Shown here one piece after another: positions 20,343 to 25,936 of a stretch of DNA of 64,000 nucleotides. The DNA is from Synechococcus sp. RCC307. Its GTDB lineage: Bacteria; Cyanobacteriota; Cyanobacteriia; PCC-6307; Cyanobiaceae. Made by a program: the position numbers and the translations under genes. Every line of letters begins with the position of its first letter. Position 1 is the stretch's first letter. The notes below the pieces were generated by a model that searched no databases, was not told the DNA's origin, and saw nothing but the letters and a program-made list of their open reading frames with translations. The stretch spans positions 243,105 to 307,104 of the forward strand of contig CT978603.1 of the NCBI GenBank assembly GCA_000063525.1, in the 5' to 3' direction.

Positions 20343-20354
20343 TGTGTGTGAGGA
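20343..20354 (+). promoter_or_regulatory. Porin 1 ribosome binding site with Yfr1-complementary sequence
   Basis: GAGG at 20350-20353 is the Shine-Dalgarno element, 4 bases before the ATG at 20357, and decides the start against an earlier in-frame ATG at 20309. The site sits in GTGTGAGGA (20346-20354), the exact complement of TCCTCACAC, the core of the conserved single-stranded motif of the cyanobacterial small RNA Yfr1. Yfr1 is known to repress outer-membrane porin mRNAs in Prochlorococcus MED4 this way. A GGCGCA-T-TGCGCC palindrome lies upstream at 20323-20335. Confidence 0.6.
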
Positions 20355-20356
20355 CC

Positions 20357-22795
20357 ATGAACGCATTCCGCAAGCTGTTGCTTGCACCTGTCGTGCTCGG
20401 TCTGGCTGCCCCTGTGGCTGCCCAGGCTCAAAGCTTCGACATGGGCAATGTCAACCGCTACACCCAACAACAAGACACCGACCGCATGCGTGCCCTTGAG
20501 GCACAAATGGGCCAGGTGACTTCCGTCAGCCAATTCTCTGACGTCTACCCCACCGACTGGGCTTATCAGGCTCTCGCCAACTTGGTTGAGACCTATGGCT
20601 GCGTCGCTGGCTACCCCGATGGCACCTTCAAGGGCAACATTGCACTGACCCGCTACGAAGCGGCTGCTCTGTTGAACGCTTGCCTCGATCGCGTGACCGA
20701 GATCACCGAAGAGCTCAAGCGCCTGATGAAGGAGTTCGAAAAGGAACTCGTGGTGCTGAAGGCCCGTGTTGACGGCCTCGAAGCTCAAACTGCTGAGCTG
20801 GCTGCAACCCAGTTCTCCACCACCACCAAACTCAGTGGTGTGGCCTACTTCTGGCTGGGTGGCGCTGTCTACAACGACAGTGGCTATAGCCCTATCCAAA
20901 ACGCAGGCCTGGCGGGTGCTGAGATCACTGCCTATCAGGACGCCATTGAGAACAATGGTCTCGCGATGGCTCCTGGCGGTGCGCTGTACAACTACGCCAC
21001 CGAGAACGCTGTTCCTCCGACCAGCAAGTTTGGTCTCGGCAAGATCCTGACCAAAGGTGCTACTTGGGTTGGCTCGACCGGAGCTGGCGGTGTTGCTAAC
21101 ACCAACGCCTACGACGGCAACCCCACCACCTACGCAGGTGCTAATGCCGCCAACATCACTGTTGCATCAACAGTTAATAACGCTGTTCCTGTGACTGTGG
21201 CTGACCTCACTGGTGGTGCATCCACCGGTGCTTTGGCTGTAACCGGTCTTCGTGGCAACGGCCTGAACGTTGGCACCCCTGGTCTTCGTACCAATGACAT
21301 CCCCGCAGGTATCGGTCTGACCCCCGGTAACTTCCGCAAGAACGTCATTGGCACCACCTATGTCCAAGGTCTGGACAAGACCGGTGTGACGCTGGGCGGT
21401 TTCGAGCTCGACACCGTTGATCTGGGCAACCTGATCCGTCTTGGCAACGCATCTCGTCGCGCCAAGAGCGCAGTCATGATTGGCTACGAGGACAACGTCG
21501 TGGCTGGCTCACCTGGCTTCGTCGCTACTGACGGTTACACCGTTGCTGCTGGTGGTTACTTCACCAACACCAACGTCTACACCGACCCCTTCAACCTCTC
21601 CGTTGCTGAGTACGGCTCCCTGGGTCCTATTCAGGCCAACCAGAAGTACGTCAAGAACGCAGCCCGCACTCTGCTGAAAGACCTCTTCTACGGCGAAGTG
21701 GCTCTGGGTGAAGCTGTCAGCTTCAACTACGACACCCGCCTGGACTTCAACACCAGCTTCACTGGTAAGGATTTGCTGCGCACTCGCCTGCGTTCCGGCA
21801 ACTTCCAGGGCAACACCTTCGCGGGTAATCCTTTCCCCGTGACCGGTGCTGAGATCGCTTTCGAAGAAGGCGCCCAAGGTTTCAACGTCAACCGCCTGTT
21901 CTACCAGTTCCCGGTTGGTGATTCCTGGACCGTGACCGCTGGTCCTTTCGTTCGTCAGGACGACATGTTGGCCGTGTGGCCCAGCCAATATCCGGCTGAG
22001 ACCATCATGGACTTCTTCACCTACGCAGGTGCTCCTGGTGCTTACAGCCTGAACCTGGGTGCAGGTGCAGGCCTGAGCTACGCCGGCGACATCCTTGGCA
22101 TGGACGGCTTCGCTGTCAGCGCCAACTACGTGGCTAACGGTGGTAACGAGAGCTTCTCCAACAGCAGCAGCCAATCTGATGCTGCCCTCCTCGGCGGTAT
22201 CGCTAACGAGAACTCCAGGGGCACCGGTACTGTCCAGATCGCCTACACCGGCGATGACTGGAACCTGACTGCTGCTTACGCCTACAACCAAGGTGGCGCT
22301 TACGGCTACATCCCCGTCGGCACTCCTATGGCTGGAGATCCTTTCGGTGGTCTCTCCAACTTCAGTGTGAGCTCGGTCGCCATCAGCGGCTGGTTCGCAC
22401 CTGAAGATTGGGGTCGCTGGATGCCTTCCGTCAGTGCTGGTTGGGGCCTGAACGGCTACACCGCCAACGCCGATGCTTCTGTCTGGGGCATCAGTGCTGT
22501 TGATGAAGGCGACAACGCCGAGAGCCAGTCCTGGTACGTCGGTCTGCAATGGCCCGACGTCTTCCTGCAAGGCAACTACCTGGGTACTGCTGTTGGTCAG
22601 CCGACCTTCATCAGCTCCAACGATTCCTTCCTGGAGTCCGACGAGTCCACCTTCGCTTGGGAAATCTGGTACAAGTTCCAGGTCACCGACAACATCGCTG
22701 TCACCCCTGCCTACTTCTTCATCGACAATCCCTCCGGATTGGGCAACGGCGGCAACGTCCAAGGTGGCGTCCTCAAGACCACCTTCACCTTCTGA
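20357..22795 (+). CDS. SLH-domain outer membrane porin 1 (SomA/SomB type)
   Basis: 812 residues. The signal peptide covers about residues 1-24 (ends PVAAQAQS). An SLH domain at about 56-110 has QFSDVYPTDWAYQAL and YPDGTFKGN, which bind the peptidoglycan-linked polymer. A charged coiled coil (about 110-145) leads to the beta-barrel, which begins at TQFSTTTKL and ends in TTFTF with a C-terminal Phe, as outer-membrane barrels require. It should form a channel for ions and small solutes, the major outer-membrane protein of picocyanobacteria. Codon use is strongly biased, as expected for high expression. It is followed by a terminator and a paralogous porin. Confidence 0.93.
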   Translation: MNAFRKLLLAPVVLGLAAPVAAQAQSFDMGNVNRYTQQQDTDRMRALEAQMGQVTSVSQFSDVYPTDWAYQALANLVETYGCVAGYPDGTFKGNIALTRYEAAALLNACLDRVTEITEELKRLMKEFEKELVVLKARVDGLEAQTAELAATQFSTTTKLSGVAYFWLGGAVYNDSGYSPIQNAGLAGAEITAYQDAIENNGLAMAPGGALYNYATENAVPPTSKFGLGKILTKGATWVGSTGAGGVANTNAYDGNPTTYAGANAANITVASTVNNAVPVTVADLTGGASTGALAVTGLRGNGLNVGTPGLRTNDIPAGIGLTPGNFRKNVIGTTYVQGLDKTGVTLGGFELDTVDLGNLIRLGNASRRAKSAVMIGYEDNVVAGSPGFVATDGYTVAAGGYFTNTNVYTDPFNLSVAEYGSLGPIQANQKYVKNAARTLLKDLFYGEVALGEAVSFNYDTRLDFNTSFTGKDLLRTRLRSGNFQGNTFAGNPFPVTGAEIAFEEGAQGFNVNRLFYQFPVGDSWTVTAGPFVRQDDMLAVWPSQYPAETIMDFFTYAGAPGAYSLNLGAGAGLSYAGDILGMDGFAVSANYVANGGNESFSNSSSQSDAALLGGIANENSRGTGTVQIAYTGDDWNLTAAYAYNQGGAYGYIPVGTPMAGDPFGGLSNFSVSSVAISGWFAPEDWGRWMPSVSAGWGLNGYTANADASVWGISAVDEGDNAESQSWYVGLQWPDVFLQGNYLGTAVGQPTFISSNDSFLESDESTFAWEIWYKFQVTDNIAVTPAYFFIDNPSGLGNGGNVQGGVLKTTFTF

Positions 22796-22831
22796 TCGAG
22801 TCGCATCAGCGATTCGCTTCAAAAGGACCAC

Positions 22832-22855
22832 TTCTCACACCACTTTTCACACACA
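22832..22855 (+). promoter_or_regulatory. 3' UTR motifs complementary to porin ribosome binding sites
   Basis: TTCTCACAC (22832-22840) can pair over nine contiguous bases (one G-U) with GTGTGAGGA at both porin start sites. TCACACACA (22847-22855) pairs perfectly with TGTGTGTGA at 20343-20351. The stretch is C/A-rich, predicted to be unstructured, and sits directly before the terminator stem, resembling the central part of Yfr1. A regulatory role is inferred. Confidence 0.35.
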
Positions 22856-22856
22856 A

Positions 22857-22881
22857 ATGGGGCCCTTTGGGCCCCTTTTTT
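22857..22881 (+). terminator. Rho-independent terminator of porin 1
   Basis: GGGGCCC (22859-22865), a TTT loop and GGGCCCC (22869-22875) form a perfect stem followed by six T residues, 63 bases after the porin 1 stop. Confidence 0.92.
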
Positions 22882-22984
22882 ATGGTCAGATTTAGGACTT
22901 TTGAGACTCGTTAAGGGACAACAAATCAGCTGTCCGCGGTGGTGCATTGGGACGTTGGAAACATCAATATCCGTTGATAGATTT

Positions 22985-23048
22985 AAAAAGAGGACCGCTT
23001 TGTCTGGCGATTTCGCCTGACTCGTGGTGCTCAATCCATCCTCTTTTT
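22985..23048 (+). promoter_or_regulatory. Structured 5' leader of porin 2
   Basis: A 10-base perfect inverted repeat, AAAAAGAGGA (22985-22994) with TCCTCTTTTT (23039-23048), encloses an inner hairpin GGCGA-TT-TCGCC (23006-23017). The 3' arm can instead pair its TCCTC (23039-23043) with GAGGA (23055-23059) of the ribosome binding site. The two pairings are mutually exclusive, so the leader could switch translation. This is read directly from the sequence; the function is inferred. Confidence 0.45.
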
Positions 23049-23050
23049 TG

Positions 23051-23059
23051 GTGTGAGGA
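23051..23059 (+). promoter_or_regulatory. Porin 2 ribosome binding site with Yfr1-complementary sequence
   Basis: GTGTGAGGA is identical to the element before porin 1 and contains the Shine-Dalgarno GAGG. It lies 4 bases before the ATG at 23064, selecting that start over an in-frame upstream start at 22947. It is the exact complement of TCCTCACAC of Yfr1. Confidence 0.6.
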
Positions 23060-23063
23060 CCCC

Positions 23064-25853
23064 ATGAATCTCTTCCAGCAACTCATGCTGGCTCCTGCTG
23101 CTCTCGGCCTGGTTGCCCCTATGGGCGCCATGGCTGGCGAGCTCAACTTCGGCGGCGTCTCCAAGTACGCCTCCGCTGATGAGCAAGTCACCAGCATCAG
23201 CCAGTTCTCTGACGTCTACCCCACGGACTGGGCCTACCAGGCTCTGGCCAACCTGATCGAGCGCTACGGCTGCGTCGCTGGTTATCCCAACGGCACTTTC
23301 CAAGGCAACCGCGCTCTTTCCCGCTACGAAGCAGCAGCTCTGCTGAACGCTTGCCTCGATCGCGTGACTGAGATCACCGACGAAGTGCGTCGCCTGATGA
23401 AGGCCTTCGAAAAAGAGCTGGCTGTTGTCAAAGCTCGCGTCGACGGTCTCGAGGCCGCTGTTGGTGAACTGGAAGCTACCCAGTTCTCCACCACCACCAA
23501 ACTGAAGGGCAAAGTCCGCTTCATCCAAGGTTCTGCCTACCGCGGCGACGGCTACGTCCGCTTCGGTCGTCTCAAGAACGTCATGAAGGCGGCTCAGCTC
23601 TACGGCATCCGCACCTACGACGGTTCCACCGGTGGTCTGCAAGACCGCACCGTGAACAAGATCAAGGACGGCAAGTCCAACGGTGAGGCTTACTACTACT
23701 ACCTGCGCGATCCTGACAACGGCGCTAAGGGTTCAGTTACAACCCAGGGTTTCACTGATCCCACCGCTCCAGCTTCCTTCAGCCTGGACAAGCAAAACGC
23801 TCGTCAAGTTGCTTTCGCCACCTCCTGGAACGGCGTAACTCCAGCTAACGAAACCTCCGGCATGGAGACTCGCTCTGGCGTCGCCGGTAGCGGTCTTTAC
23901 ACCAACGCCAACGGCACCATTGCCCCTGTTGGTGATACCAACATGCTGATCGTCCCGACGATCGCTGGTTTGGGTAACGGCTCCACCAATGCCAACGGCT
24001 CGACCAACACTGTCAACTACGCTCCGGATCGCAGCCGGATGTCCTTGTACTTCAAGGACGGCCAGCGCACCGATAACAGTTATGGCGTTGGTGCTGATCA
24101 GTTCCTGATCTCGACCCAAGGCGTTAAGTCCTTCATCGGCCAGGATTCCTTCCTGCGTGCTCGTAACTTCTTCGAGCAGGACAAGTTCGGCAACACCCAA
24201 AAGCTGCGAGTTCAGACTTCTAACTCTGGCTCCAGCAACTACAAGGCCAAGTCGATTCAGTTCGATAAGGCTGACTACGGCGCTCTGATCAACCTGGCCA
24301 ACAAGGCCCGTCGTGTGAAGGCCTACGACTACTACGTGCTGCCTAACCAAGGCACCACCAGTATCAATGGCCTGACCAAGGTCACCAAGGCTGCAGGCGT
24401 TCCTGACCCCGTCAAGATCTCCGACGTCCAGCGCGGTTACGTTGCGGTACTTCCTGAGTTCACCAGCAACGCTGCTGCAACCACTGCCATCCTCTCCGGT
24501 TACAACTCCACCGGCATGGATGACCGCAACGGCGGTGCTTCCTTCGTGGTTGCTCCGGGTGGCTACGTGCAGTCCAACACTGCCTTCAACAATGTCAGCA
24601 ACTACCTGATCGCTGAGTATGGCTCCCTGGGTTCTGCCCAGCGCAACACCGGCTACGTGAAGAAGGCTGCTCAGCTGTTCGTTCGTAGCTTGGCTGCTTA
24701 CCCCGCCAACAAGAACGGTGTTGCAGACCGCAACGCCTTCACCTTCGGCCACGACGCTCAGCTCAACTTCAACACCAGCTTCACTGGTAAGGACAAGCTG
24801 AACTTCCGCCTGCGTTCCAACACCATCTACAGCTTCGCGAAGCGCGTTAACGCTCCCTTCGCTGACCTGGCATTCGACGGCTCCCTGCCTGAGAACTGGA
24901 AGGGCAAGCACAAGGTGTTCGTCGACAAGCTGTACTACAAGTTCCCTGTTGGCGATTGGGGCAAGGTGTCCTTCGGTACCCGCGCTCCTCAGGATTCCTT
25001 CCTGCCTAGCCGCGGCACCATGTACACCAAGGACGCTCTGCTTGAGTTCTTCAACACCTCTGCTGGTGTGTTCCCCTCCTACACCGGTACCGGTGCTGGT
25101 GTTGGAATCAGCCGCTTCGGTGGCAAGAAGCTGAAGATTGCTAACGGCACCGTTGGCTTCGGTATTGGCTACCTGACTGCAGAAGGCGATGCGGCTAACC
25201 CCGCTTCCTACAACTATCTGCAGGAAGGTCTGTTCGGTCGCGACACTCGCTTCCGTCTGCCCGTCCAACTCGCTTGGAAGAGCAAGGACAAGAAGTGGCT
25301 GTTCACTGCCAACTACGCCTACGAGCGTGGCAACAACTCCATGGGCAAGGTCGGCACCGAGCTGGCTAAGAACCCCTTCGGCGCCAGCACTCTGATTGAA
25401 TCCAATCAGTACGGCTTCACCCTGGCCTACAAGTGGAGCAAGCAGTTCCAGATCACCGGCGCTTATGGCGGTGCTTCGATGAACTCCCGCTACGACAGCA
25501 GCATCCTCGGTATTGACATGGTCAATGCTGGCGACTCTGCTCAGACCAGCAGCTGGATGATCGGCCTGAACTTCAAGGACGTCTTCATCCAAGGCAACAA
25601 GGCTGGCTTCGCCATCGGTGGTGTGCCAACGGTCAACAGCAACGACAGTGGCTGGGGTACCGACGGCAGCATGCCGATCGCTCTGGAAACCTGGTACCAG
25701 TTCCAGGTCACCGACAACATCAGCGTCACCCCTGGTGTGTTCTGGGTCTCTGGCCAGAACGACGAGAAGACCGGCCGTTACGGTCAGGTCACCCTCGAGG
25801 CCTCCAACGGCGACGTCTGGGGCGGCATCGTCAAGACCGAGTTCAAGTTCTGA
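23064..25853 (+). CDS. SLH-domain outer membrane porin 2 (SomA/SomB type)
   Basis: 929 residues, a paralog of porin 1 with the same order: signal peptide (about 1-24, ending GAMAG), SLH domain (about 44-98, again QFSDVYPTDWAYQAL and YPNGTFQGN), coiled coil (about 100-135) and a C-terminal barrel ending in KTEFKF. The N-terminal 140 residues are close to porin 1. The barrel loops have diverged, and the protein is about 117 residues longer, rich in Gly, Asn, Ser and Lys. Tandem SLH porins are usual in marine Synechococcus. The gene has its own leader and terminator, so it can be controlled apart from porin 1. Confidence 0.93.
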   Translation: MNLFQQLMLAPAALGLVAPMGAMAGELNFGGVSKYASADEQVTSISQFSDVYPTDWAYQALANLIERYGCVAGYPNGTFQGNRALSRYEAAALLNACLDRVTEITDEVRRLMKAFEKELAVVKARVDGLEAAVGELEATQFSTTTKLKGKVRFIQGSAYRGDGYVRFGRLKNVMKAAQLYGIRTYDGSTGGLQDRTVNKIKDGKSNGEAYYYYLRDPDNGAKGSVTTQGFTDPTAPASFSLDKQNARQVAFATSWNGVTPANETSGMETRSGVAGSGLYTNANGTIAPVGDTNMLIVPTIAGLGNGSTNANGSTNTVNYAPDRSRMSLYFKDGQRTDNSYGVGADQFLISTQGVKSFIGQDSFLRARNFFEQDKFGNTQKLRVQTSNSGSSNYKAKSIQFDKADYGALINLANKARRVKAYDYYVLPNQGTTSINGLTKVTKAAGVPDPVKISDVQRGYVAVLPEFTSNAAATTAILSGYNSTGMDDRNGGASFVVAPGGYVQSNTAFNNVSNYLIAEYGSLGSAQRNTGYVKKAAQLFVRSLAAYPANKNGVADRNAFTFGHDAQLNFNTSFTGKDKLNFRLRSNTIYSFAKRVNAPFADLAFDGSLPENWKGKHKVFVDKLYYKFPVGDWGKVSFGTRAPQDSFLPSRGTMYTKDALLEFFNTSAGVFPSYTGTGAGVGISRFGGKKLKIANGTVGFGIGYLTAEGDAANPASYNYLQEGLFGRDTRFRLPVQLAWKSKDKKWLFTANYAYERGNNSMGKVGTELAKNPFGASTLIESNQYGFTLAYKWSKQFQITGAYGGASMNSRYDSSILGIDMVNAGDSAQTSSWMIGLNFKDVFIQGNKAGFAIGGVPTVNSNDSGWGTDGSMPIALETWYQFQVTDNISVTPGVFWVSGQNDEKTGRYGQVTLEASNGDVWGGIVKTEFKF

Positions 25854-25873
25854 TCTCCGTTCTCGACGCTTTT

Positions 25874-25882
25874 ACTCCTCAC
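25874..25882 (+). promoter_or_regulatory. Yfr1-like ACTCCTCAC motif in porin 2 3' UTR
   Basis: ACTCCTCAC lies in an open C/A-rich stretch 20 bases after the porin 2 stop and 24 bases before the terminator stem. It matches the first nine bases of the conserved Yfr1 motif ACTCCTCACAC. Seven of its bases (TCCTCAC) are complementary to GTGAGGA at both porin ribosome binding sites. Role inferred only. Confidence 0.35.
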
Positions 25883-25906
25883 CACAACACCTCCCACACA
25901 GATCAC

Positions 25907-25936
25907 AAGCCCCTCCGAAAGGAGGGGCTTTTTTTT
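25907..25936 (+). terminator. Rho-independent terminator of porin 2
   Basis: AAGCCCCTCC (25907-25916), a stable GAAA tetraloop and GGAGGGGCTT (25921-25930) form a perfect 10-base stem followed by T residues to 25936. Confidence 0.95.

Follow-up and report, generated by a model that had tools for sequence, protein, structure and literature searches.

Synechococcus sp. RCC307 has a genome of a single 2,224,914 bp contig, on which a 64,000-nucleotide stretch (positions 243,105-307,104, here the window, whose coordinates are used for the porin locus) contains two SomB-type porin genes in tandem. The subject of this analysis is an RNA element in the 3' untranslated regions (UTRs) of such porin mRNAs, bearing a seed of the kind known from the small RNA (sRNA) Yfr1. 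Both genes lie on the forward strand and encode SLH and OprB domains (NF033921, "iron uptake porin"): porin 1 at 20357-22795 (270.6 bits against a cut-off of 100; stop codon 22793-22795) and porin 2 at 23064-25853 (283.7 bits; stop codon 25851-25853). The ribosome binding site of porin 1, TGTGTGTGAGGA at 20343-20354 (+), is the complement of the Yfr1-type seed and is read as TGTGTGTGAGGACC from 20343, while that of porin 2, TGGTGTGAGGA at 23049-23059 (+), is the pairing partner of the porin 1 3' UTR and is read as GGTGTGAGGACC from 23050. Terminator scanning gave strong terminators at 22859-22875 for porin 1 and 25907-25930 for porin 2; with folding included, the intrinsic terminators span 22859-22881 (+) and 25907-25936 (+).

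Each porin carries its motif or motifs between its own stop codon and its strong terminator. The folded porin 1 3' UTR (minimum free energy -29.2 kcal/mol, z -4.8) consists of a 5' hairpin at 22797-22816 (+), CGAGTCGC-ATCA-GCGATTCG, then an unpaired region that holds both motifs, then the terminator. The first motif, ACTTCTCACACC at 22830-22841 (+), includes TTCTCACAC at 22832-22840 and has one mismatch to ACUCCUCACAC; the second, TCACACACA at 22847-22855 (+), is unpaired in the fold. The porin 2 motif, ACTCCTCAC at 25874-25882 (+), is likewise open, and no compact 5' hairpin is found there. The window motifs have unpaired probabilities of 0.92-0.98. The exact 11-nucleotide ACUCCUCACAC is absent from both porins, with porin 1 reading ACUUCUCACAC (one mismatch) and porin 2 ACUCCUCACCA (the first 9 of 11 nucleotides). 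A first-pass annotation, made from the DNA letters alone, had listed these motifs, likened the porin 2 string to the start of the Yfr1 motif and placed them in an open stretch before a strong terminator; every string was found at its listed position, and both further statements were borne out. It had likened the motif and terminator to the 3' part of Yfr1; porin 1, with its 5' hairpin, open motif and terminator, shows the Yfr1 layout as a whole.

In Yfr1 (RF01116), the seed ACUCCUCACAC is exposed between two hairpins, the second being the terminator, and porin mRNAs are among the targets (PMC2190773, PMC6778093). Porin 1 similarly has two stem-loops around an unpaired stretch, but this stretch is longer than the 16-20 nucleotides described for Yfr1. 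Unlike Yfr1, the element is not an independent intergenic gene: it begins right after the porin stop codon, and its seed, imperfect in the window, is carried on the 3' UTRs of the very gene family that is targeted. The porin loci tested gave no match to RF01116 even at E-values up to 1, and an Rfam scan of the window at the gathering score returned a tRNA only.

Within the genome, the 9-mer ACTCCTCAC is unremarkable by itself (one occurrence in the window where 0.28 are expected; 16 genome-wide, with 13 for the reversed pattern). Searching for CTCACAC with T6 within the next 15-45 bases gives four distinct sites, and the reversed control gives none. These four sites are the porin 1 3' UTR and three Yfr10-like sRNA candidates, L119, L120 and L122, at genome positions 472956 (+), 972223 (-) and 1034678 (+), each combining CTCACAC with a terminator containing GGCTCCG...CGGGGC. 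One of the three scores 26 bits against the Yfr1 model, under the cut-off; Yfr1 proper, with 58.6 bits against RF01116, is encoded on the minus strand near 664,6xx. The motif placed directly before a terminator therefore exceeds chance, which the 9-mer alone does not. On the target side, GTGTGAGGA followed by ATG was found at five genome sites: both porins, one gene-less hairpin and two sites antisense to a Yfr1 motif. Genuine starts are found at the two porins only. A hairpin, CCCCAGC-UGGUGUGAGGAAU-GCUGGGG (L278, 475069-475078, +), lies outside evident genes about 2 kb from one of the Yfr10-like loci; its loop is the exact anti-Yfr1 sequence, and it is a candidate Yfr2-type sponge RNA.

Across the family, 60 loci of named genomes and 60 porin regions spanning genera yielded 131 distinct porin 3' flanks, 57 of which (about 43%) contain CTCACAC, TCACACA or TCCTCAC. 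The first-pass annotation was thus too general in crediting each porin mRNA with the motif. CTCACAC occurs in 35 of 88 porin 3' flanks versus 6 of 354 non-porin flanks from the same loci, and at least three of these six lie antisense to a porin ribosome binding site, whose reverse complement they carry. Because few non-porin open reading frame (ORF) ends have terminators, and some run antisense over porin starts, this control is weak, and a terminator-centred control was substituted. With the latter, the motif lies no more than 60 bases upstream of 45 of 100 porin terminators, compared with 4 of 64 genomic terminators (860 kb, five genomes). All four belong to the two porins of the window and two Yfr10-like loci; the other 60 have no motif. 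In three relatives from the same genus the porin 1 3' UTR retains the double motif, as CCAC(T)TCCTCACACC..TTTTC..CACAC, while flanks and terminators diverge, the reverse of the pattern of lost motifs and kept terminators that the first-pass annotation had named as speaking against its reading. Two of the three have the full ACTCCTCACAC, and porin 1 of the relatives G001 and G005 has the exact ACUCCUCACAC. The open, Yfr1-like arrangement is also found in other porin copies (L220, L221, L230).

A second recurrent 3'-UTR element, ACTCCTCACGCGC..CTCGCGC..CACTCACACACC, was seen at eight loci (L047, L050, L053, L063, L089, L241, L242, L244). It follows the downstream porins of tandem pairs and has a small hairpin between two seeds.

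Motif sites are unpaired at a mean probability of 0.90, against 0.52 over all windows folded, and in many freshwater relatives a stem of 6-13 pairs, differing in sequence from lineage to lineage, closes a loop of about 12-16 bases that contains CCUCACAC. In an alignment-free count that involved no picking by eye, a stem of at least 8 bp enclosed 10 of 39 motif sites; shuffled flanks gave a mean of 0.29 and a maximum of 3. Since MAFFT alignment did not bring the stems together, stems of unlike sequence were lined up by padding the loops with N. Among the first 12 hairpins, 95.8% of cells are paired with 50 double changes, a level reached by none of 500 shuffles. These 12 had been chosen for their stems, and the test was for that reason carried to 21 further sequences in an alignment fitted to the model, which gave 85.1% paired cells and 53 double changes, left the five inner pairs unbroken throughout and was equalled by none of 500 shuffles. 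A covariance model of this hairpin, R1, was run on 392 genomes of the family and gave 30 matches, of which 28 lie immediately 3' of porin stop codons. Eight of the 30 repeat training sequences, and 20 of the other 22 are at porins. R1 has no match in the Synechococcus sp. RCC307 genome, because the motif here is open and not in a loop. Under strict filters it also found nothing outside the family in a sample of 290 genomes of the class, and as far as tested the element is confined to this picocyanobacterial family.

Two variants were observed. One, which is among the R1 matches at porins, belongs to a diverged porin of a Prochlorococcus genome (L138, G230:C4:162348), where the loop of the terminator hairpin itself bears ACTCCTCACAC. 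About 55 bases past a folC-like ORF, on the minus strand and away from any porin, L261 (G343) has the hairpin GATCAACTCTCCTCACACGAAGTTGATC and a second CTCCTCACACC before a terminator; this may be a Yfr10-like RNA or the 3' UTR of another gene.

We conclude that SomB-type porin mRNAs carry a real 3'-UTR element with a Yfr1-type seed, and that this element is structured, lineage-specific and specific to porin 3' ends. The seed itself is supported as conserved, single-stranded and particular to porins and Yfr1/Yfr10-like RNAs. Its sequence, structure, covariation and position at porin 3' ends are direct observations. That C/A-rich, unstructured spacers before terminators resemble Yfr1 by chance and have no function is, we think, very improbable: the motifs are short and the 9-mer alone is not over-represented, but none of the 60 other genomic terminators has the motif once porins and Yfr10-like loci are set aside, and both the covarying stems around it and the R1 matches at porin ends would go unexplained. 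The display of a constant loop on stems of varied sequence also resembles a recognition element, and Voss et al. considered protein binding for the Yfr1 motif (PMC2190773). A site for an RNA-binding protein or stability factor recognising CCUCACAC on Yfr1, Yfr10 and porin 3' UTRs alike is nevertheless improbable. It leaves unexplained why the motif and the ribosome binding site of porins should be reverse complements of each other, and the known function of Yfr1 is base pairing, as seen from compensatory mutations in Nostoc targets (PMC6974561).

The complementary sequence GUGUGAGG is the ribosome binding site of almost every genuine porin start across the family, including Prochlorococcus genes without a 3' motif. 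Targets were ranked among 1,163 candidate starts, which cover about a fifth of the genome, by a simple score for ungapped pairing corrected for accessibility. The porin 1 3' UTR ranks porin 2 third, through UUCUCACACCA:UGGUGUGAGGA (11 nucleotides, one G-U), and its own start region fourth, through a 9-nucleotide ungapped pairing via UCACACACA. Yfr1 itself also ranks porin 2 third, with 11 nucleotides at the porin 2 site. The porin 2 3' UTR forms a weak pairing of 7 bp with its own ribosome binding site (rank 149). The pairing that the first-pass annotation predicted for both 3' UTRs is accordingly seen for the porin 1 copy and is weak for porin 2. On present sequence comparisons the porin 1 element is the active-looking copy of the window, and the porin 2 copy looks weak in Synechococcus sp. 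RCC307.

Complementarity of 7-11 nucleotides inside single mRNAs could also mean that the mRNA closes into a loop, with its 3' UTR bound to the ribosome binding site of the same molecule, acting intramolecularly as the annotation had proposed for regulation in cis. Own 3'/5' pairing (9.45 nucleotides) is, however, not longer than that with swapped porin sites (9.80 +/- 0.12), and GAGGACC has become GAGAACC at the porin 1 site of the three genus relatives without a compensating change on the 3' side. Since own pairs are no better than swapped ones, there is no gene-specific co-evolution of the two ends; strict cis pairing is disfavoured, and we regard an intramolecular element as quite improbable.

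That the element has a regulatory effect is a strong prediction, and we give about an even chance to the reading that it acts as Yfr1 does, in trans on porin ribosome binding sites, with feedback and cross-regulation as the result. The element displays one or two Yfr1 seeds (YCCUCACACA), in some cases within the loop of a covarying hairpin and in others on unpaired sequence flanked by a 5' hairpin and the terminator. Through the seed, it would base-pair in trans with porin mRNAs at their near-invariant GUGUGAGGA ribosome binding site and lower their translation. The acting form could be the 3' end of the intact mRNA or a short cleaved RNA shielded by its hairpins and terminator. In the window, the porin 1 element would target porin 2 and porin 1, and the predicted outcome is a product-coupled negative feedback and cross-regulation of tandem porins, additional to Yfr1.

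Several observations weigh against regulation in trans by such an element. A promoter scan found no sigma-70-like promoter near the porin 3' elements, and many marine Synechococcus porin copies lack the motif. Gapped duplex energies are non-selective, with the porins ranking 124-631 of 1,173, so that the comparison of pairing energies suggested by the first-pass annotation puts porin sites near the top for the porin 1 copy under the ungapped score only. CUCACAC is followed by A in 34 of 49 occurrences, whereas pairing with most porin sites would call for C at this position. Such a context is as compatible with a copied Yfr1 consensus as with targeting of the porin site.

The last observation bears on a serious rival, in which the porin 3' UTR is a Yfr1 mimic: it would pair with Yfr2-type sRNAs and free Yfr1, or shift the balance of Yfr1 and Yfr2, as a 3'-UTR sponge and not a direct repressor. 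Yfr1 represses the PMM1121 porin 5' UTR in a reporter assay; the Yfr10 RNAs share its motif, through which both bind Yfr2, and Yfr2 binds and blocks Yfr1/Yfr10, including the repression of PMM1121 by Yfr1 (PMC6778093). The seed context is nearer to the Yfr1 consensus CCUCACACA than to the exact complement of the porin site, and the genome has the L278 hairpin with loop UGGUGUGAGGAAU. This 475-kb hairpin is a candidate Yfr2, and judged by sequence the element pairs just as well with porin sites directly. Rfam RF01702 (Cyano-2), tried for Yfr2, matched nothing anywhere and so says nothing either way about Yfr2. As porin targets explain the specificity for porin mRNAs more simply, we consider titration of Yfr2 unlikely, while taking it seriously.

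Elements that recall this one are known, as are Yfr1 and its porin targets. The Yfr10-like sRNAs (Yfr10, Yfr12, Yfr18, Yfr104, Syr5) likewise share the motif among otherwise unrelated RNAs without conserved structure or synteny (PMC6778093; PMC2518516). Those, in contrast, are separate sRNA genes, several beside Yfr2 copies, and the accessible parts of the sources describe none as part of a porin 3' UTR. Autoregulatory sRNAs derived from 3' UTRs are already established in Vibrio cholerae, where OppZ and CarZ act from an mRNA 3' end on their own transcript and inhibit its translation by pairing (PMC7398697). The porin elements are of this type in lying between the stop codon and the intrinsic terminator of the parent mRNA, and in that the accessible porin 1 seed (weakly, that of porin 2) complements its own or a co-regulated translation start. 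OppZ and CarZ are released by RNase E, and OppZ is Hfq-dependent with Rho termination; release of the porin elements is only proposed here, and their seed, unlike those of OppZ and CarZ, reproduces the seed of a separate, conserved sRNA. ApcZ of Synechocystis PCC 6803 differs in operon and target, and a review lists it among sRNAs with ORF-embedded promoters (PMC9438474).

A possible lead on a porin 3' RNA is Yfr21 of Prochlorococcus MED4 (1069553-1069757, complement). Microarrays placed this transcript between PMED4_12671 and PMM1121, a porin gene of the same strand, and Northern blots did not show it (PMC2518516); the gene order would put it 3' of PMM1121. We found no description of a Yfr1 seed in porin 3' UTRs in the literature searched, with subscription papers and supplementary tables outside reach, in agreement with the first-pass annotation, which knew of none.

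Yfr1 is among the most conserved cyanobacterial sRNAs and is always abundant. A conserved version of that seed, placed at the 3' ends of the mRNAs that Yfr1 is best known to target, would add the feedback arm that has been missing and couple it to porin expression, in organisms that are some of the most abundant phototrophs on Earth. More tentatively, porin mRNAs may double as carriers of the Yfr1 seed, with 3' ends that serve as Yfr1-equivalent regulators tracking porin expression and feed back on porin translation and the wider Yfr1/Yfr2 network, the seed having possibly been gained repeatedly on unrelated stems. The porin 3' ends also offer a specific example, open to testing in any genome, in which the seed of an sRNA turns up again within the mRNAs it targets, borne by unrelated stems.

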